A program made the position numbers and the translations under genes. Under the pieces are notes generated by a model that was not told where the DNA came from, did not search any database, and saw only the letters and a program-made list of their open reading frames with translations. From positions 1-64,000 of the forward strand of contig JAUWAC010000015.1 in assembly GCA_030602245.1 (NCBI GenBank): a DNA stretch of 64,000 nt, in the 5' to 3' direction. This DNA comes from Marinobacterium sp. (GTDB taxonomy: Bacteria > Pseudomonadota > Gammaproteobacteria > Pseudomonadales > Balneatricaceae). Each line of letters opens with the position of its first letter. Position 1 is the first letter of the stretch. Shown here piece by piece: positions 175 through 14,015 of this stretch.

Positions 175-651
175 ATGAGCTCATCGACACCGCGCCTTCG
201 GCGCTACAACCCGACCAGCGACGACTTCAAGAAGGAGGAGTTTCCGCTCTACTGGCTGGCCCGGGTGCATGGTCGTTACACGCTCGCCATGGAGAAGGCG
301 CTGAAGAAGATCGGCATGGATATTCCCCGTTACCGCATTCTGTTCATTCTCAAGGAACAGGGCGTGTCCAGCATTACCGAAATCGCCGAACACGCCATCG
401 CCAAACTCCCCACCGTAACCAAAACCGTTTACCGCATGAAAGCGGACGGGCTGGTCGATACCCAACCCAGTGCCGACGATGGGCGTGTCACTCAGGTCAC
501 GTTGACACCACTTGGGCAGGACGCCATCGATAAGATCGAGCTGGCCACCGCCGGGTTGTTCGCACAGAGCTTCAAGGGGATGACCGAGGCCCAGCTCAAA
601 CGCCTGAACAAGCTGCTGGAAAACATCTTCAACAACCTGCCCGAACACTGA
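175..651 (+). CDS. MarR family transcriptional regulator
   Basis: This 158-residue protein has the MarR layout: N-terminal dimerisation helices, a winged helix-turn-helix at about residues 60-110 (TEIAEHAIAKLPTVTKTVYR is the helix pair, DGRVTQV the wing), and a C-terminal helix that packs in the dimer. MarR proteins bind palindromic operators as dimers and usually repress a neighbouring gene until a small ligand binds. The next gene, metY, lies 155 bases downstream on the same strand, so its target may be itself, metY or a gene left of the window. The ATG at 175 has no strong ribosome-binding site, so the start is the least certain point. The ligand cannot be told from the sequence. Confidence 0.85.
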   Translation: MSSSTPRLRRYNPTSDDFKKEEFPLYWLARVHGRYTLAMEKALKKIGMDIPRYRILFILKEQGVSSITEIAEHAIAKLPTVTKTVYRMKADGLVDTQPSADDGRVTQVTLTPLGQDAIDKIELATAGLFAQSFKGMTEAQLKRLNKLLENIFNNLPEH

Positions 652-762
652 CCGAGCCCCAACGCGCACGAACGGGCCGACTGAGGGCAGGGCACAATGA
701 CTGCCGCTCCACGCTGAAGGCGACACACACGCGTTTTCGATCCCCGCCCTTTTGGTTAAGCT

Positions 763-774
763 AGAGCGCGCTCT
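763..774. promoter_or_regulatory. Perfect 12-base palindrome upstream of metY
   Basis: AGAGCGCGCTCT lies 33 bases before the metY start. It is a self-complementary site in the promoter or leader region and could be an operator, perhaps for the adjacent MarR regulator. That role is inference; the sequence shows only the symmetry and the position. Confidence 0.3.
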
Positions 775-806
775 GGACAACAATAACGCAACCACAGGAT
801 GTCCCC

Positions 807-2078
807 ATGAAACTGGAAACCCTCGCCGTACACGCCGGCTACAGCCCCGATCCCACCACCCGGGCGGTCGCCGTGCCGGTCTACCAGACCACCTCCTATG
901 CCTTTGATGATGCCCAGCATGGCGCCGATCTGTTCGACCTCAAGGTCGCCGGCAACATCTACACCCGCATCATGAACCCGACCACCGATGTGCTGGAGCA
1001 GCGTGTCGCGGCGATGGAAGGCGGCATCGCCGGTCTGGCCGTCGCCTCGGGCATGGCCGCGATCACCTACGCGATCCAGACCATCGCCGAGGTCGGCGAC
1101 AACATCGTCTCCACCAGCGAGCTGTACGGCGGCACCTACAACCTGTTCGCCCACACCCTGCCACGGCAGGGTATCGAGGTGCGTTTCGCCAACAAGGACG
1201 ACTTCGCCGGTATGGAGCAGCTGATCGACGACCGTACCAAGGCGATCTTCTGCGAAACCGTCGGCAACCCGTCCGGCGGCGTGGCCGACATCGAAAAGCT
1301 GGCCGAGATCGCACACCGCAACGGCGTGCCGCTGATCGTCGACAACACGGTGCCGAGCCCGGTGCTGTGGCGCCCGATCGAGCAGGGTGCCGATATCGTC
1401 GTCATCTCCGCGACCAAGTACATGGGCGGCCACGGCAACTCCGTCGGCGGCGTCATCGTCGATTCCGGCAAGTTCCCGTGGGACCAGCACAAGGAGCGCT
1501 TTGCACTGCTCAATGAAGCCGATCCGTCCTACCACGGCGTCGTCTACACCGAGGCGTTTGGCCCCGCCGCGTTCATCGGCCGCGCCCGCGTGGTGCCGCT
1601 GCGCAACACCGGCGCGGCGATCTCGCCGATGAACGTGTTCCTGCTGCTGCAGGGCCTCGAGACGCTGCCACTGCGCATGGAACGGATCTGCGACAACGCG
1701 CAGAAGGTCGCCGAATATCTGGAAAACCACCCGGCCGTGACCTGGGTGAACTACGCCGGTCTGGAGAGCCACAAGGATCACGCGCTGGCGCAGAAATACA
1801 TGGGCGGACGCGCCTCCGGCATTCTCAGCTTCGGCCTCAAGTCCGGCCGCGAAGGCACCCGCCGCTTCTATGATGCGCTGAACGTGTTCCTGCGCCTGGT
1901 GAACATCGGCGACTGCAAGTCGCTGGCGGCGATTCCGGCGGAAACCACTCACCGCCAGCTCAACGATGAAGAGCTGAAATCCGCCGGCGTGTCACCGGAA
2001 ATGGTGCGGCTGTCGATCGGCATCGAGCATATTGACGACCTGATCGCCGATCTGGATCAGGCGCTGGCGAAGGCCTGA
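807..2078 (+). CDS. metY: O-acetylhomoserine sulfhydrylase (PLP enzyme)
   Basis: This 423-residue cytosolic enzyme of the Cys/Met metabolism PLP family joins O-acetylhomoserine with sulfide to give homocysteine. Such proteins often also accept O-acetylserine. The PLP lysine is Lys204 in SATKYMGG, followed by the HGNSVGG motif typical of the MetY branch; YTRIMNPTTDVLEQR near residue 52 is the N-terminal family signature. Length is normal for MetY (about 420-430). AGGA stands 7 bases before the ATG at 807. The stop overlaps the end of the convergent LysR gene by 22 bases. Sulfur-related neighbours (the YeiE/YeiH-like pair) fit the role. MetZ (O-succinylhomoserine) is less likely given the length and motif context. 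Confidence 0.92.
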   Translation: MKLETLAVHAGYSPDPTTRAVAVPVYQTTSYAFDDAQHGADLFDLKVAGNIYTRIMNPTTDVLEQRVAAMEGGIAGLAVASGMAAITYAIQTIAEVGDNIVSTSELYGGTYNLFAHTLPRQGIEVRFANKDDFAGMEQLIDDRTKAIFCETVGNPSGGVADIEKLAEIAHRNGVPLIVDNTVPSPVLWRPIEQGADIVVISATKYMGGHGNSVGGVIVDSGKFPWDQHKERFALLNEADPSYHGVVYTEAFGPAAFIGRARVVPLRNTGAAISPMNVFLLLQGLETLPLRMERICDNAQKVAEYLENHPAVTWVNYAGLESHKDHALAQKYMGGRASGILSFGLKSGREGTRRFYDALNVFLRLVNIGDCKSLAAIPAETTHRQLNDEELKSAGVSPEMVRLSIGIEHIDDLIADLDQALAKA

Positions 2079-4837: not shown

Positions 4838-5902
4838 TCAGCGGTGGTACGGAGCACTGAGTTCATGCACCGCATCGACGAAGATGCCGGCATGCTCCGG
4901 ATCCACGAACTGGTGGATGCCGTGACCCAGGTTGAACACGTGGCCGTTGCCATGGCCATAGCTTTCCAGAATCCGCGCCACCTCATCACGGATGCGGCTC
5001 GCCGGTGCATAGAGTACGCTCGGGTCCATGTTGCCCTGCAGCGCGACCCGGTCTCCGACGCGGGCACGGGCATCGCCGATCTCGGTGGTCCAGTCCAGTC
5101 CAAGCGCATCGGCACCGGTATCGGCCATCGCCTCCAGCCACTGACCGCCATTCTTGGTGAACAGGATCGCCGGCACACGGCGCCCGTCATGCTCACGGAT
5201 CAGACCGTTGACGATGCGCTGCATGTAAGCGAGCGAGAATTCGCGGTACATCGGGCCACTCAGGGCGCCGCCCCAGGTATCGAAGATCTGCACCGCCTGC
5301 GCGCCGGCCAGGATCTGCTCGTTCAGATACAGCGTCACGGCATCGGCCAGCTTACCCAGCAGCCTGTGCATCACCTCCGGACGGGCGTACATCATCTCCT
5401 TGATATGACGGAAATCCTTGCTCGAACCGCCCTCGACCATATAGGTCGCCAGCGTCCAGGGGCTGCCGGAGAAACCGATCAACGGCACCCGACCGGCCAG
5501 CGCGGAGCGAATCTCGCGCACCGCCGCCAGCACGTAATCCAGATCGGTCGCCACGTCCGGCAGCGGCAGCGCCTCGACGTCGTCGGCGCTGCGTACGATC
5601 TTCTTGAAGCGCGGGCCTTCGCCGGCTTCGAAATAGAGGCCCAGCCCCATGGCGTCGGGGATGGTCAGGATATCGGAGAACAGGATCGCCGCATCCAGGT
5701 CATAGCGCTCCAGCGGCTGCAGCGTGACCTCGCAGGCGAGCTGAGGATTCTTGCACAGGCTCATGAAGTCGCCGGCGCGGGCGCGGGTTTCGCGATATTC
5801 CGGCAGGTAGCGTCCGGCCTGACGCATCATCCAGACCGGGGTCCGGTCTACCGGCTCACGCAGCAGCGCGCGCAGAAAACGGTCGTTCTTCAACTCAGCC
5901 AT
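4838..5902 (-). CDS. hemE: Uroporphyrinogen decarboxylase
   Basis: HemE removes four acetate carboxyl groups from uroporphyrinogen III to give coproporphyrinogen III in haem synthesis, in the cytosol and without a cofactor. The start I chose gives [20 protein letters not shown] and 354 residues, the E. coli length; AGGA lies about 10 bases before it, whereas the in-frame upstream codon at 5935 has no support. The signatures [16 protein letters not shown] (near residue 25) and [16 protein letters not shown] (near residue 140) are both present. In Pseudomonas, from memory, hemE lies next to gltD; here a proline utilisation block of about 6.5 kb separates them. The Asp of the ILFSDIL motif, the catalytic residue in the family, is intact. 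Confidence 0.97.
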
Positions 5903-6081
5903 GGTGTCATTCCTGTTGTTCGCTTGGGTCGCCATAAAAAGATGGGCGCCATTGTAACGGTTTCAGCCGCGTTCAAGTAGTAATCGGCATGCGCTTGAAC
6001 TGTGTGCATGATCGACACCAGTCAACCCTGTGCTATCCTTTGCGATCGGTTTTGATTTCTGTCAACCAGCGTCGATCAAGC

Positions 6082-6846
6082 ATGCGTAAAGAAGCCAGCG
6101 TTATCTCTCTGCCGGACCGCGCCGACCAGCATGATCATGGCTATCACCAGCTGGTGTTCGGTCTCGAGGGCGATACGGAATTCGATCTTGCCGGGTACTG
6201 CCGTCCGGTTCATGCCGGCTGGGGCTGTCTGCTGCCCTCCGCCACCGGGCACGCCTTCCACGGTCTGGGGGATAACCGCATCGTTGTCGTCAACCTGCCC
6301 ACGCAGGGCGACGACCGCCAGCTGCAGCAGCGGGTCGAGCGCCTGTTCGATCGCGCCGACTATTTCAACTGCGCGCCCCAGATGCAGATGCTGGTACAGA
6401 CGCTGGGCCGTGAAATGCAGCACAATCCCGGTGACGAGCTGCTGCAGGATGCCTGCGCCAGCACGCTGGTCTGTGCCCTGCAGCGCCAGTTCGAACAGCA
6501 GACCCGCCAGCCGCGCAGCCATGGCCGGCTGAATCTGGACCTGATCAACAGCTACATCGATCTGCACATCGGCCGCCGCATCGGCGTATCGGAGCTGGCC
6601 GGCGCCGTCTGTCTCAGCGACAGCCAGTTCCACGCCCTGTTCCGCGATCAGACCGGCCTGACACCACAACAATATGTACTGGAGCGCCGCCTGCACGCCG
6701 TTGCCCGGGCCCTGCTCCACTGCGATCAGCCGATCGCCGATCTGGCCGTGCGCTACGGCTTCGCGACCCAGAGCGCGCTGACCCGCGCCTTCAGCCGCCG
6801 CTTCGACATGCCGCCGGCCCGCTACCGCCGTCTGTACCAGTCCTGA
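6082..6846 (+). CDS. AraC family regulator beside putA, likely proline-responsive
   Basis: This 254-residue protein has an N-terminal cupin-like sensor domain (HDHGYHQLVFGLEG, HAGWGCLLPSATGHAFHG) and a C-terminal pair of AraC helix-turn-helix motifs: IGVSELAGAVCLSDSQFHAL, then PIADLAVRYGFATQSALTRA and the final FDMPPARYRR. I start it at 6082, where the sensor domain begins; the frame is open further upstream to 5989, but that extension has no family character. It lies upstream of putA on the same strand, and two 21-base-spaced direct repeats lie between them. In Pseudomonas aeruginosa the AraC-type activator PruR controls putA, so the same role is likely here. The effector would be proline by analogy; that is not shown. 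Confidence 0.85.
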   Translation: MRKEASVISLPDRADQHDHGYHQLVFGLEGDTEFDLAGYCRPVHAGWGCLLPSATGHAFHGLGDNRIVVVNLPTQGDDRQLQQRVERLFDRADYFNCAPQMQMLVQTLGREMQHNPGDELLQDACASTLVCALQRQFEQQTRQPRSHGRLNLDLINSYIDLHIGRRIGVSELAGAVCLSDSQFHALFRDQTGLTPQQYVLERRLHAVARALLHCDQPIADLAVRYGFATQSALTRAFSRRFDMPPARYRRLYQS

Positions 6847-6924: not shown

Positions 6925-7053
6925 CGGGAAAAGACCCCGTCATACCTCTGTCCTTAACCTGCGGTCATGGTGGGCAGCGTCTACAGTGGGAGCAATCACG
7001 TTTTGCTTCCCGGGGCCGCGATGCTGCCCGGTACGACTATTCAGGAGAGTTCT

Positions 7054-10000
7054 ATGTTCAAGGCGATCGATGTCCTCGACCCGGCTTTCATCGAGCAACC
7101 ACTGGCGACGCTGTGGCAGCAGATCAGTCCGCTCTACTCGGCGGACGAGGAGCAGGTACTGCGTGAGCTGATGCCGCTGGCCGAACCGCGCGGCGACGAG
7201 CTGGCGCGCATCGAAGCCCGGGCTACCCGGCTGATCGAGCAGGTGCGTGCCGATGACGGCGCGATCCACATGATCGATGCGCTGCTGCTGGAGTACAGCC
7301 TCGATACCCGCGAAGGCATTCTGCTGATGTGTCTGGCGGAAGCGCTGATGCGCATTCCCGATGCCGACACCGCTGACGCGCTGATCCGTGACAAGCTCAG
7401 CATCGCCGACTGGAAACGTCACCTGAGCCAGTCCGATTCCCTGCTGGTCAACGCTTCCACCTGGGGGCTGCTGCTGACCGGCAAGGTGGTCACGCTGGAC
7501 GAGCGGGAGGACGGCACCCCGGCCGGCATCATCAACCGCCTCGTCAACCGCCTGTCGGAGCCGGTGATCCGCAAGGTGATGCAGCAGGCGATGAAAATCA
7601 TGGGCCACCAGTTCGTGCTCGGGCGTGATATGCCGGAGGCGAGCAAGCGCGGCCGCGAATACCGTGAGCGCGGCTACACCTACTCCTTCGACATGCTCGG
7701 CGAGGCCGCGCTGACCGAGGCCGACGCCCAGCACTATTTCGACGACTACGTGCGCGCCATCGAGCATGTGGGTGCCATGCCGGCGATCGGCCCGAGCCCG
7801 AAGCCGAGCGTCTCCATCAAGCTGTCCGCACTGCACCCACGCTACGAGAACTTCCAGCGTGAACGGGTCATGTCCGAGCTCGCCGAGCGCGTCCTCCTGC
7901 TGATCCGCCGCGCCCGTCCGCTGGGCGTCGCGCTGACGATCGATGCCGAGGAAGCCGACCGCCTCGAGCTGTCGCTGGCACTGTTCGAGCAGCTGTATCG
8001 TGACGACGCCACCCGCGGCTGGGACGGCTTCGGTCTGGTGGTACAGGCCTACTCCAAACGTGCCCTGCCGGTACTCGCCTGGCTCGCGGCCCTGTCCCGC
8101 GAGGTCGGCGACCGTATCCCGGTGCGACTGGTCAAGGGCGCTTACTGGGACAGCGAGATCAAACTGTGCCAGCAGCGCGGTCTCGACGGCTACCCGGTGT
8201 TCACCCGCAAGGAAGCCACCGATGTCTCCTATCTGGCCTGCGCCCGCTTCCTGCTCAGCGAGCAGGTCCGCGGTCTGATCTGGCCCCAGTTCGCCAGCCA
8301 CAACGCCCACACCGTGGCCGCGATCATGACCCTGGCCGAGCACGCCGACTTCGAATTCCAGCGCCTGCACGGCATGGGCGATGCGCTCTACGATCAGGTA
8401 CTGGAGCAGGCCGGCGTCGCCGTGCGTATCTATGCGCCGGTCGGCAACCACAAGGATCTGCTGCCCTATCTGGTACGCCGCCTGCTCGAGAACGGCGCCA
8501 ACAGCTCGTTCGTGCACCGTCTGGTGGATCAGCGCTGCCCGATCAGCGATCTGGTGCAGCATCCGTGGCAGGTTCTGAGCGGGCGCAGCACTCTGCACAA
8601 CCCGAACATTCCGCTGCCGCGTGACATTTACGGCAGCGAACGTCAGGCGTCGCAGGGCCCCAACGTGCTGATTCAGAGCCAGTGGCAGCCGTTCGCTGCA
8701 CGCGTGGATCGCTTCATGGGCTACTGCTGGCAGGCGGACCCGATCATCAACGGCAGCCGCGAAACCGGCAGCGCACTGCAAAGCGATGTGCGCTCGCCGG
8801 CCAACCGCGACAATCTGGTCGGACAGGTCAGCTGGGCCGGTGCCGAGCAGGTGGCTCGGGCGATCGATGTGGCCGAAGCGTTCCTGCCGCAGTGGCAGCA
8901 GAGCGACGTCAGCGCGCGCGCCGCCGCCATCTGTCGTCTGGGCGATCTGCTCGAGGAGCATCTCGAGGAGTTCGTCGCCCTTTGCCATCAGGAAGCCGGC
9001 AAGACCGTGCAGGATGGCATCGATGAGGTCCGCGAGGCGGTGGATTTTTGTCGCTACTACCCCAACCAGGCCGAAGCGCTGTTCGCCGAGCCGCTGCAGC
9101 TGGAGCAGCTGGATGGTCGGACCACACACTGGCAGCGTCAGGGCCGGGGCATCTTTGTCTGCATCAGCCCCTGGAACTTCCCGCTGGCGATCTTCCTCGG
9201 CCAGATCAGCGCTGCGCTTGTCGCCGGCAACTGCGTCATCGCCAAACCGGCAGAGCAGACCAGTCTGGTCGCGGCGCGGGCCATCGAACTGATGCTTGAG
9301 GCCGGTATTCCGGGCGGCGCGATCCAGCTGCTGCCGGGCGATGGCGCCACCGTCGGCGCACGCCTGACGGCCGATCCGCGGATCGCCGGCGTCGCCTTCA
9401 CCGGCTCCACCGAAACCGCCCAGCGCATCAACCGTGCGCTGAGCCAGCGCGACGGTGAGCCAGCCACGCTGATCGCCGAAACCGGTGGCCAGAACGCGAT
9501 GATCGTCGACTCCACCGCACTGCCGGAGCAGGTGATCAAGGATGCCGTGATGTCGGGCTTCGCCTCGGCCGGACAGCGCTGTTCAGCGCTGCGCATCCTC
9601 TGTGTGCAGAACGATATCGCCGAACGCATCATCGAGCTGCTCAAGGGCGCGATGGCCGAACTGCGTGTCGGTGAGCCCTCGCTGCTCAGTACCGACGTGG
9701 GTCCGGTGATCGATGAGACCGCGCAGCGCGGCCTGCTGGCGCATATCGAGCGGATGCAGAAGGAGGCCCGTCTGATCGCTCAGACGCCGCTGCCGGCTCA
9801 CGCCGACAAGGGCTACTTTGTGCCACCGACGGCGATCGAGATCAGCCGTATCGACCAGATCGGCCGCGAGCAGTTCGGACCGATCGTCCATCTGCTGCGC
9901 TACGAGGCGCGCGACCTGGACAAGCTGATCGACCAGATCAACGCCGCCGGCTACGGTCTGACGCTCGGCATCCACAGCCGCAACGAGCGCACCGCCATGC

Positions 10001-10173
10001 ATATCGAAGCCCGCGCCCGGGTTGGCAACACCTACATCAACCGTAACCAGATCGGCGCTGTCGTCGGCGTCCAGCCGTTCGGCGGTCAGGGGCTGTCCGG
10101 CACCGGTCCCAAGGCCGGCGGTCCGCACTACGTGCCGCGCTTTACCCGACTGATTCCGGTTGATGCCCAGTAA
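7054..10173 (+). CDS. putA: Bifunctional proline dehydrogenase / P5C dehydrogenase, lacking the DNA-binding and C-terminal domains
   Basis: PutA oxidises proline to glutamate in two steps at the membrane face. The 1039 residues hold an FAD proline dehydrogenase barrel (GPSPKPSVSIKLSALHPRYE near residue 250, RLVKGAYWDSEIK near 365) and an NAD aldehyde dehydrogenase domain (CISPWNFPLAIF near 705, FTGSTETAQ near 787, catalytic Cys843 in SAGQRCSALRI). The start at 7054 follows AGGAGA; the open frame reaches back to 6967 without family similarity. There is no ribbon-helix-helix domain at the N-terminus, so this PutA cannot be its own repressor, unlike E. coli PutA. The protein stops soon after GGPHYVPRF, where longer PutAs continue into a C-terminal domain. 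That domain is the next gene. Confidence 0.95.
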   Translation: MFKAIDVLDPAFIEQPLATLWQQISPLYSADEEQVLRELMPLAEPRGDELARIEARATRLIEQVRADDGAIHMIDALLLEYSLDTREGILLMCLAEALMRIPDADTADALIRDKLSIADWKRHLSQSDSLLVNASTWGLLLTGKVVTLDEREDGTPAGIINRLVNRLSEPVIRKVMQQAMKIMGHQFVLGRDMPEASKRGREYRERGYTYSFDMLGEAALTEADAQHYFDDYVRAIEHVGAMPAIGPSPKPSVSIKLSALHPRYENFQRERVMSELAERVLLLIRRARPLGVALTIDAEEADRLELSLALFEQLYRDDATRGWDGFGLVVQAYSKRALPVLAWLAALSREVGDRIPVRLVKGAYWDSEIKLCQQRGLDGYPVFTRKEATDVSYLACARFLLSEQVRGLIWPQFASHNAHTVAAIMTLAEHADFEFQRLHGMGDALYDQVLEQAGVAVRIYAPVGNHKDLLPYLVRRLLENGANSSFVHRLVDQRCPISDLVQHPWQVLSGRSTLHNPNIPLPRDIYGSERQASQGPNVLIQSQWQPFAARVDRFMGYCWQADPIINGSRETGSALQSDVRSPANRDNLVGQVSWAGAEQVARAIDVAEAFLPQWQQSDVSARAAAICRLGDLLEEHLEEFVALCHQEAGKTVQDGIDEVREAVDFCRYYPNQAEALFAEPLQLEQLDGRTTHWQRQGRGIFVCISPWNFPLAIFLGQISAALVAGNCVIAKPAEQTSLVAARAIELMLEAGIPGGAIQLLPGDGATVGARLTADPRIAGVAFTGSTETAQRINRALSQRDGEPATLIAETGGQNAMIVDSTALPEQVIKDAVMSGFASAGQRCSALRILCVQNDIAERIIELLKGAMAELRVGEPSLLSTDVGPVIDETAQRGLLAHIERMQKEARLIAQTPLPAHADKGYFVPPTAIEISRIDQIGREQFGPIVHLLRYEARDLDKLIDQINAAGYGLTLGIHSRNERTAMHIEARARVGNTYINRNQIGAVVGVQPFGGQGLSGTGPKAGGPHYVPRFTRLIPVDAQ

Positions 10174-10189
10174 TCGAGGAGACGATGCC

Positions 10190-10891
10190 ATGACCGATCA
10201 TCAATTCTTCGGCCCAGAAGCCGCCAGCGTATTTGAAACCTGGAATCGGCGCGGCTTCGCCGCCCGCTGCGATCTGCTCGGCGGCGCACTGGCCCAGCTG
10301 CCGTTGTGTGCCGACCACGAGGAGCAGTCCCGCCTGCTGCCGCGCCTGCTGGACCGGGCGCGCCTGCTGGACCAGCCGATCGAACTGCCGGGGCCCACCG
10401 GCGAAAGCAACGAGCTGTACGAAACCGCCCGCGGCCTGACGCTGGTCGTGGGCAGCGACAGCGCCACGCCGCGCGCCCTCGCCGGGCAGCTGTTCGCCGC
10501 GCTGGCCTGCGGCAACCCGGTGATCTTCAGTGCCGAGCCGGAACCGGAGTGGGGCAGTCGTCTGGTCACGCTGCTGCATCAGGTTGGCGTGCCGCGCGGT
10601 GTCCTCGTCTGCGCCGACAACGCCCCGCTCGAGACCCTGCTGCAACTGCCGTCGCTGACGCTGGTCGCACCGGTCTGTCGCCCCGAAGAACTGATCCGCA
10701 TCCAGCGCCCTCTCGCCGAGCGGGATGGACTGCTGGTACAGTTGGCCGCCGAAACGGACCCGGACGGCTGCACCACACTGCTGCAGCCCGATCATCTGCA
10801 TCGTTTTCTGACCGAAAAGACGCGGACGATCAACACAACTGCCGTGGGGGGCAACGCGACCCTGCTGGAGCTGGGCAGCAGTGCCCCCTGA
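10190..10891 (+). CDS. Stand-alone PutA C-terminal (inactive ALDH-like) domain
   Basis: This 233-residue protein begins 16 bases after putA with GAGGAG spaced 8 bases from its ATG. It matches in order the C-terminal region of long (type B) PutA proteins as I recall it: GPTGESN at about residue 67, an ALDH-fold middle without catalytic cysteine or NAD motif, and at the end INTTAVGGNATLLELGS (about 214-230), which resembles the conserved C-terminal PutA motif. In single-chain PutAs this domain helps close the substrate channel and stabilises the aldehyde dehydrogenase part. The likely role is to join the 1039-residue PutA in trans. An automatic label of P5C dehydrogenase would be misleading, as it cannot be an enzyme alone. 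The domain match is strong by eye; the trans role is inference. Confidence 0.8.
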   Translation: MTDHQFFGPEAASVFETWNRRGFAARCDLLGGALAQLPLCADHEEQSRLLPRLLDRARLLDQPIELPGPTGESNELYETARGLTLVVGSDSATPRALAGQLFAALACGNPVIFSAEPEPEWGSRLVTLLHQVGVPRGVLVCADNAPLETLLQLPSLTLVAPVCRPEELIRIQRPLAERDGLLVQLAAETDPDGCTTLLQPDHLHRFLTEKTRTINTTAVGGNATLLELGSSAP

Positions 10892-10923: not shown

Positions 10924-12414
10924 ATGACCGATAACAACCTTGCCATCTACGGCACCTTTGTCGTCTACCTGATCCTGATGCTCGCCATCGGCTACTACGC
11001 CTACCTGAGGACGGCCAACTCCTCGGACTATTTTCTGGGCGGGCGCTCCCTCGGCCCCTGGCCGGCAGCCTTGTCGGCCGGCGCCTCGGACATGAGCGGC
11101 TGGTTGTTGCTCGGTCTGCCCGGCTACGCCTATGCCGCCGGTCTGGAATCACTCTGGCTGGCCGGCGGCCTGCTCGCCGGTACCTGGGCCAACTGGCAAT
11201 TCACCGCCAAGCGTCTGCGCACCTACAGCATCGTCGCCAACGACTCGCTGACGCTGCCCGAGTTCTTCGCCAACCGCTTCCAGGACAGCTCGCGCCTGCT
11301 GCAGGTGATTTCCGCCTTCTTCATCCTGCTGTTCTTCCTGTTCTACACCAGCTCCGGCCTCGTTGCCGGCGGCAAGCTGTTTGAAACCGTATTCGGCCTC
11401 GACTACAGCACCGCGGTCATCATCGGCACCGTCTGCGTGGTCTCCTATACCCTGTTCGGCGGTTTCCTCGCCGTGTCCTGGACCGACCTGGTGCAGGGCT
11501 TGCTGATGGCCGCCGCACTGCTGATCGTACCGGTCATCGTGATGCAGGTGGATGGCGGCTGGGGCGCCATGTTCACATCGCTCGACGAGCTGAACCCGCA
11601 ACTGCTGACCCTGTTCAACGACACCAACGGCGAGGCGCTGAGCTGGATCGCGATCGTATCGTTGGCGGCCTGGGGTCTTGGCTACTTTGGTCAGCCGCAT
11701 ATCCTCGCCCGCTTCAAGGCCGCCCGCAGCAACGCCGAGATCCCGACCGCACGCCGCATCGCCGTGGCCTGGAGCGGCCTGTCGATGGCCGGTGCCGTGT
11801 TCGTTGGTCTGGCCGGTCTGGTCTACGTCAACGGCCACATGGCCGGCAACATCGCCGATGGCGAGAAGATTTTCATGGTGCTGGTCAACGCCGTGTTCCA
11901 CCCGGTGATCGCCGGCATTCTGCTGGCGGCCATTCTGGCGGCCATCATGAGTACGGCCGACTCCCAGCTGCTGGTGTCCTCGTCCGCACTGGCGGAGGAC
12001 TTCTACAAGAAGCTGATCCGCCCGAATGCGAGCCAGAAAGAGATCGTCAACGTCGGCCGTGGCGCCGTGCTGGCGCTGTCCGTGGTGGCGCTGATGCTGG
12101 CATTCAATCCGGATTCTACCGTGCTGGGGCTGGTGTCCTATGCCTGGGCCGGTTTCGGTGCCGCGTTCGGTCCGGCGCTGCTGCTGAGCCTGTACTGGTC
12201 ACGCATGAACCGTAACGGCGCGCTGGCCGGTATCGTCGTCGGCGCCCTGACCGTGGTGATCTGGAAGCAGCTCTCCGGTGGCATCTTTGATCTGTACGAG
12301 ATCGTGCCGGGCATCCTGTTCGCCACCGTCGCCATCGTCGTCGTATCCCTGCTCAGCGCCGCGCCGCACGAGGCGATCCGCGCGCAGCACCGCGAGATGC
12401 TGAACAAGCTCTGA
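10924..12414 (+). CDS. putP: Sodium/proline symporter
   Basis: This is a 496-residue inner-membrane protein of the sodium:solute symporter family with about 13 membrane segments. It brings in proline with sodium for PutA. Family motifs visible are SSDYFLGGRSLGPWPAALSA near residue 33, GYFGQPHILARF near residue 255 and the sodium-site region AAIMSTADSQLLVSSSALAE near residue 340. Length matches E. coli PutP (502). GAGAAG precedes the ATG at 10924. It closes the putA operon 32 bases after the split PutA domain gene, and a strong terminator follows. Confidence 0.95.
   Translation: MTDNNLAIYGTFVVYLILMLAIGYYAYLRTANSSDYFLGGRSLGPWPAALSAGASDMSGWLLLGLPGYAYAAGLESLWLAGGLLAGTWANWQFTAKRLRTYSIVANDSLTLPEFFANRFQDSSRLLQVISAFFILLFFLFYTSSGLVAGGKLFETVFGLDYSTAVIIGTVCVVSYTLFGGFLAVSWTDLVQGLLMAAALLIVPVIVMQVDGGWGAMFTSLDELNPQLLTLFNDTNGEALSWIAIVSLAAWGLGYFGQPHILARFKAARSNAEIPTARRIAVAWSGLSMAGAVFVGLAGLVYVNGHMAGNIADGEKIFMVLVNAVFHPVIAGILLAAILAAIMSTADSQLLVSSSALAEDFYKKLIRPNASQKEIVNVGRGAVLALSVVALMLAFNPDSTVLGLVSYAWAGFGAAFGPALLLSLYWSRMNRNGALAGIVVGALTVVIWKQLSGGIFDLYEIVPGILFATVAIVVVSLLSAAPHEAIRAQHREMLNKL

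Positions 12415-12542: not shown

Positions 12543-14015
<1,473 letters not shown>

Follow-up and report, generated by a model that had tools for sequence, protein, structure and literature searches.

The window analysed here is a stretch of 64,000 nucleotides of Marinobacterium sp. (contig JAUWAC010000015.1, positions 1 to 64,000). In its list of ORFs, a series of genes lies on the + strand in the order AraC-type regulator, putA, a gene of 233 codons and putP. The features of this locus are:

5989..6846, + strand: gene for an AraC-family regulator (ORF; pattern match; AraC annotated at the equivalent site in Salinivibrio)
7054..10173, + strand: putA, catalytic chain of 1039 aa with PRODH and P5C (GSAL) dehydrogenase modules and without the C-terminal motif (ORF, domain matches, trees)
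9106..9126, + strand: QLDGRTT in the catalytic chain, an eroded form of the flap tip that reads GPTGESN in type A PutAs (alignment, loop comparison, translation)
9580..9582, + strand: catalytic cysteine codon (GQRC) in putA (motif reading, translation)
10176..10181, + strand: GAGGAG, ribosome-binding-like site of the small gene (sequence)
10190..10891, + strand: small gene, 233 aa, an NAD-binding-like aldehyde dehydrogenase (ALDH) half that lacks the catalytic domain but has the oligomerisation flap and the C-terminal motif (alignment, predicted fold)
10391..10411, + strand: GPTGESN (residues 68–74 of the small protein), the turn of the flap hairpin between model strands 64–67 and 73–80 (model)
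10829..10879, + strand: conserved C-terminal motif INTTAVGGNATLLELGS (residues 214–230 of the small protein)
10924..12414, + strand: putP, sodium/proline symporter gene (ORF; putP annotated at the equivalent site in Salinivibrio)

The putA frame begins with an ATG at 7054 and has 1039 codons before a TAA stop; the longest frame opens at 6967. After a spacer of 16 bases the small gene runs from an ATG at 10190 to a TGA ending at 10891. Coordinates and translation agree with a first-pass annotation of the window, which had described a PutA of this length followed at this distance by a 233-aa gene carrying GPTGESN and the C-terminal motif. The AraC-type gene at 5989..6846 is probably the regulator of the put operon and may have a PruR-like role. 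The neighbouring genes on the - strand look, from reading of their translations, like those for uroporphyrinogen decarboxylase (hemE, 4838-5935) and the glutamate synthase small chain (gltD, 12543-13973).

Substrate channelling has been studied extensively in PutA. The 1039-aa protein has the make-up of a PutA, with PRODH and aldehyde dehydrogenase modules and the catalytic Cys and Glu in one chain, and both GQRC (Cys 843) and AETGG are present. It stops 13 residues beyond GTGPKAGGPHY. Neither the GPTGESN flap tip nor the C-terminal motif is part of it; the two sit in the product of the 233-aa gene. The top sequence match of this core is the type A BjPutA of Bradyrhizobium japonicum. The protein has neither the type A set of a GPTGE flap tip and a C-terminal motif on the catalytic chain nor the type B arrangement of a C-terminal domain within the core chain, the two parts being encoded by separate genes. 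No N-terminal ribbon-helix-helix DNA-binding domain, the mark of type C, was among the four hits of a Pfam search. The host genome (90.7 % complete) contained one PutA module at E 1e-110.

Similarity of the 233-aa protein to a PutA chain is more than would be expected by chance (phmmer, E 2.1e-17). Its best solved sequence match is the type A BjPutA (residues 627–762 and 971–997, 66 bits), against 29 bits for the C-terminal domain of the type B SmPutA of Sinorhizobium meliloti. The protein falls under the Pfam cut-off (16.5 versus 23 bits) and is matched weakly by PutA models (66 and 37 bits). It is 65–70 % identical to its counterparts in four other species of the genus, and matches in its own genome at E up to 1 consisted of itself and the PutA module only. 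In the alignment, it covers the half of a type A module that binds the nucleotide, as far as the AET site, and continues directly with the flap strand and the C-terminal motif, with approximately 200 residues, including the catalytic cysteine, missing. The usual nucleotide-binding motifs are also absent. The small protein contains six cysteines, none of which is equivalent to the catalytic one because the catalytic domain is absent; the lack of a catalytic Cys had been pointed out in the first-pass annotation.

An AlphaFold2 model of the small protein (pLDDT 88.9, pTM 0.86) had a low-scoring tail. Foldseek placed BjPutA first (E 6.5e-12), as did VIA-align (BjPutA 546..989, Z 23.6, 219 residues, 2.6 Å), with the aldehyde dehydrogenases that came next scoring approximately 2 Z units lower, and SmPutA was not among the best 50 fold matches listed. 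The small protein resembles a PutA C-terminal domain, being a Rossmann-like domain with a flap that ends in the conserved motif and has no catalytic domain. The earlier proposal that such a domain is separately encoded here is upheld. Monofunctional P5C dehydrogenases of the ALDH4 kind share the fold of the NAD-binding half; unlike them, the small protein does not contain the catalytic cysteine domain of a P5C/GSAL dehydrogenase or the usual nucleotide-binding motifs. As had been anticipated, it has nevertheless been annotated as an enzyme, either as an 'aldehyde dehydrogenase family protein' or, according to PMC3858670 on Vibrio campbellii, as 'PutC', a P5C dehydrogenase. The middle tag in V. 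campbellii was identified as the small gene because of its place, the order in record L004 being putA, small gene, putP. This naming is the point in favour of the small protein itself being a P5C dehydrogenase, a reading that is barely credible for a protein without a catalytic domain and with neither SPWNF nor KPAEQT in its sequence.

A further question is whether one long gene has been made to look like two by a premature stop or by a frameshift, programmed or not. VCA1072-1073 of V. cholerae, seemingly the same locus, is recorded in PMC9201469 as an 'authentic point mutation, causing a premature stop', with PutA and PutP named. Against such an artefact, 100 locus rows, representing at most 85 distinct places as 15 were counted twice (L008–L021 and the window, again among L153–L168), used all three stop codons for PutA (TAA 59, TGA 37, TAG 4) and all three frames of the small gene relative to putA (+2 in 49, +1 in 34 and +0 in 17). 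The distance from the PutA stop to GPTGE in these rows was 184–273 bases. A ribosome-like site, identified by a loose rule, was located near a candidate start in all 84 rows that remained after removal of doubles. The dN/dS ratio of the small gene was 0.05–0.19 in 15 of 15 pairs and that of the catalytic module 0.016–0.098 in 14 pairs, with one further pair saturated; figures from pairs with dS values above 1, of which there were several, are rough. The small gene is under purifying selection, and in all 14 comparable pairs its product has changed faster than the catalytic module. The pair is not a sequencing error, because it is conserved across loci with mixed stops and frames and is under selection. 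On the same grounds a pseudogene, frameshift or premature stop was ruled out, and an artefact of any of these kinds has almost no remaining probability. By analogy with its relatives, the V. cholerae locus may be the normal split form. The first-pass annotation had named a lack of similarity to the PutA C-terminus and a frameshift joining the two frames as decisive against it, and neither was found.

It had also proposed a search for the same split in related genomes, where the arrangement proved to be present. Among the best 80 of 457 confirmed GTDB relatives, 32 loci were split, 46 were fused and two were broken or cut. The latter two, L082 (broken) and L111 (cut at the contig start), were excluded from the 32 split loci, in three of which (L039, L040 and L056) putA itself is broken in the draft. 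The stand-alone small gene occurred in 15 of 57 genomes in a sample of relatives, in five of eight within the genus and in at least eight of 200 genomes of a phylum sample; an even draw of 274 genomes across the class gave, among the matches listed, the source genome only. Split loci were found in Marinobacterium, Nitrincola, Marinomonas, Neptuniibacter, Neptunomonas, Enterovibrio, Salinivibrio, Photobacterium, Vibrio and Moritella. No DNA match to the small gene was obtained in E. coli genomes.

Searches with the catalytic chain gave 30 loci among relatives, comprising 16 split, eight type A, five type B and one that was not classed (L176). The small gene was present in 15 of these 16 split loci, and the remaining locus ends with its contig. 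For the Vibrionaceae, 54 of 61 genomes matched and the small gene was present in all of the best-scoring 30 of the 54 loci. Taken together, the loci approached from the catalytic chain included 46 with a split putA; the small gene follows putA immediately in 45 of them, and the 46th is at a contig end; three loci first flagged as lacking the gene had it when all frames were read. A motif pattern detected putP downstream in 26 of 37 loci and, in three named Marinomonas loci, in none. Two other loci differ in appearance. The PutA of Colwellia maritima lies in two overlapping frames (L082:2157-6028) and has the look of a fused gene that has been broken rather than of a split pair. A short frame ending TNNTAALGGNASLLALGDE is located between an AraC-like gene and putP in L144 (3000-3250), with a type B putA just past putP, and may be what is left of a putA 3' end or lid gene that has been lost.

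The flap tip and the C-terminal motif have a complementary distribution over the two chains. In pattern-matched rows, GPTGE was present in the catalytic-domain loop of 22 of 23 distinct type A loops, none of 46 type B loops and none of 77 split loops. The flap loop of split catalytic chains is of type A length (33–35 residues) with the motif eroded, whereas that of type B catalytic modules is mostly shortened (19–35 residues, median 22). Tails of split catalytic chains are 10–35 residues long and lack the C-terminal motif in 84 of 84 cases. In three related chains (L043, L167 and L168) the last residues are GGNA, which may be left over from the lost motif. On the small chain, GPTGE was found in 83 of 84 split rows, with GATGE in the other, and the C-terminal motif also in 83 of 84, L066 having a garbled end; these lid motifs are among the invariant or nearly invariant columns of the protein. 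In the rows compared, the tip motif and the C-terminal motif thus occur jointly, on the part that would serve as lid.

A tethered proxy of the pair was modelled from Marinomonas balearica as one chain, with the stop read as glycine and PRODH omitted (pTM 0.87). On the type B SmPutA (554..1221) it aligned over 646 residues covering both domains (2.4 Å, Z 48.6), and Foldseek gave a TM of about 0.78 for the whole chain, at 6.7–7.1 Å. The C-terminal motif had pLDDT values largely below 50 in this model, as in that of the small protein. The proxy supports the pose but does not prove it, because 22 of the 37 rows in its alignment are type B, from which the pose may be inherited, and the motif tail was placed without confidence.

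The type A PutA dimer is described in PMC5786444 as domain-swapped, with the oligomerisation domain of one chain covering the tunnel. The complementary motifs support a two-subunit PutA at the split loci, in which an asymmetric heterodimer would be formed by a catalytic chain with the active sites and tunnel and a small chain acting as a lid (probability about 0.72). Also in its favour are the constant place of the small gene behind split putA, the confident models of the small protein and of the proxy, the purifying selection and the type A grouping of the core. The 1039-aa chain would keep both active sites and the tunnel after loss of the flap tip and C-terminal motif, while the 233-aa chain would be a partial copy of an ALDH module in which the flap and the motif are kept but the catalytic domain and the usual nucleotide-binding motifs are gone. 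The two chains would bind in a 1:1 ratio, pairing either as the halves of a type A dimer or as the core and C-terminal domain do inside one type B chain, and the flap of the small chain would seal the tunnel of the catalytic chain, with an effect on channelling. The catalyst would then no longer need the parts that seal a partner, and the lid would no longer need an active site; the observed losses match expectation for a swapped pair in which one chain has become the catalyst and the other the lid. Assembly in trans is the likeliest reading of the split. Points against the heterodimer are the limits of the proxy, the low pLDDT of much of the C-terminal motif that is supposed to form the seal, the faster evolution of the small protein, which would not be needed in an obligate core subunit, and the GGNA ends of three catalytic chains, perhaps scraps of the motif.

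Two alternatives concern what the small protein would do instead. The catalytic chain may still homodimerise, with the small protein as an add-on (e.g. in an α2β2 form) that tunes membrane binding or channelling. The whole aldehyde dehydrogenase module and a loop of type A length are kept in the catalytic chain, the small chain evolves faster, and PMC5293562 links the type B C-terminal domain to functional switching, all in line with an add-on; erosion of the flap tip in all 77 distinct split loops and absence of the C-terminal motif from all 84 catalytic tails, bar the three GGNA scraps, make it unlikely. A loss-of-cap variant, offered in the first-pass annotation beside assembly in trans, would have a catalytic chain that leaks P5C and a small protein with another job, e.g. 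in regulation. The motif tail left unplaced in the models would suit such a variant. It is rendered quite improbable by the near-constant presence of the small gene beside split putA (all but the locus at the contig end), its purifying selection and the near invariance of the lid motifs.

The proposed heterodimer shares properties with both established types. Like the type B SmPutA and RcPutA, it combines a core with a dead ALDH-like C-terminal domain ending in the conserved motif, and the tethered proxy is predicted to take the same arrangement. It differs in being encoded by two genes where type B has one chain, in a core that does not group with type B rows and in an eroded loop where the type B loop is mostly shortened. 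SmPutA is reported in PMC12398946 to be mainly a monomer at assay concentrations. Type A BjPutA resembles the split system in core kinship, loop length, the top core sequence match and the top fold match of the small chain, and its domain-swapped dimer serves as the model; in type A, however, both sealing elements are on each identical chain, while here they are on a separate chain without a catalytic domain.

Phylogenetic trees were reconstructed for the catalytic chain from 48 chains and 1028 columns and were unrooted. The rows were hand-picked from 92 that were classed, with near-duplicates and some long rows omitted and some long rows kept. Rows in which the pattern did not find a full putA were left out (17 in one set and 15 in the other), so that most Rhodanobacter-like type A rows are missing. 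The 19 split catalytic chains formed one clade (100/99), and the nearest branches were three type A rows (supports 96/86, 97/89 and 100/99). A single clade of the 19 split and 17 type B/C rows, a group named after a first tree had been seen, was rejected by the AU test (lnL 207.6 lower, p 5.8e-78, L097 omitted). This indicates that the catalytic chain belongs with the short type A PutAs and not with the long type B PutAs, and rules out fission of a type B PutA as its origin. The first-pass annotation had taken the pair for a split long single-chain PutA, which does not fit the type A grouping and loop length of the catalytic chain or the higher score of the small protein to the BjPutA module than to the type B C-terminal domain. 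The split clade spans Oceanospirillaceae and Vibrionaceae, a spread that may be due to vertical descent with losses or to transfer.

For the small protein the trees did not discriminate. With 274 columns, a clade with type B C-terminal domains was not rejected (AU p 0.582, the tree being 1.88 log units better), nor was a grouping with two type A sisters (AU p 0.498). Lone small rows fell on the wrong module when aligned with the joined chain and were omitted. In a first tree, a starred branch placed the small proteins with catalytic modules, apart from most type B domains; an independent origin was read from this branch and then set aside, as the AU tests support no choice. The small gene could be a detached type B C-terminal domain that joined a type A PutA. 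The small protein is collinear with these domains, with the catalytic domain missing at the same junction, and one clade with them is compatible with the AU test. The type A module is, however, the best sequence match, the starred branch pointed to catalytic modules, a grouping with two type A sisters is likewise compatible with the AU test, and in the type A sister G020 putP comes straight after putA, without a lid gene. Such an origin is tentatively placed somewhat below an even chance. Close to an even chance, and still short of it, is a third PutA design in which part of a type A putA was copied in tandem and the swapped homodimer then broke its symmetry, giving a catalytic chain and a dead lid subunit in an event separate from the rise of the fused type B domain. 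If true, this design would represent a halted stage of the path by which other lineages arrived at one long chain, and would be an experiment of nature in making substrate channelling rely on a second protein.

No description of a split PutA lid was found in searches of an open-access library; reference titles on V. vulnificus refer to a putAP operon. If the two-subunit reading is correct, the annotation of the lid in Vibrionaceae and marine Oceanospirillales as a P5C or aldehyde dehydrogenase would be corrected, and the pair would illustrate how complementary losses can convert a swapped homodimer into a heterodimer. Engineered proteins have been used, as described in PMC5293562, to approach what the extra C-terminal domain does in long PutAs; a natural, separate and removable lid subunit would let the role of the lid be tested by adding or omitting it.

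Other long PutAs also had unusual flap loops. The core of the fused PutA of 1294 aa in L097 (2108-5992) groups with type A rows (with L142 at 100/99), and its own flap loop is full length but eroded; this protein may represent another independent gain of a C-terminal domain. In the long PutAs of L118 and L120 (open frames of 1361 and 1365 aa), the flap loop of the catalytic module is likewise full length but eroded.
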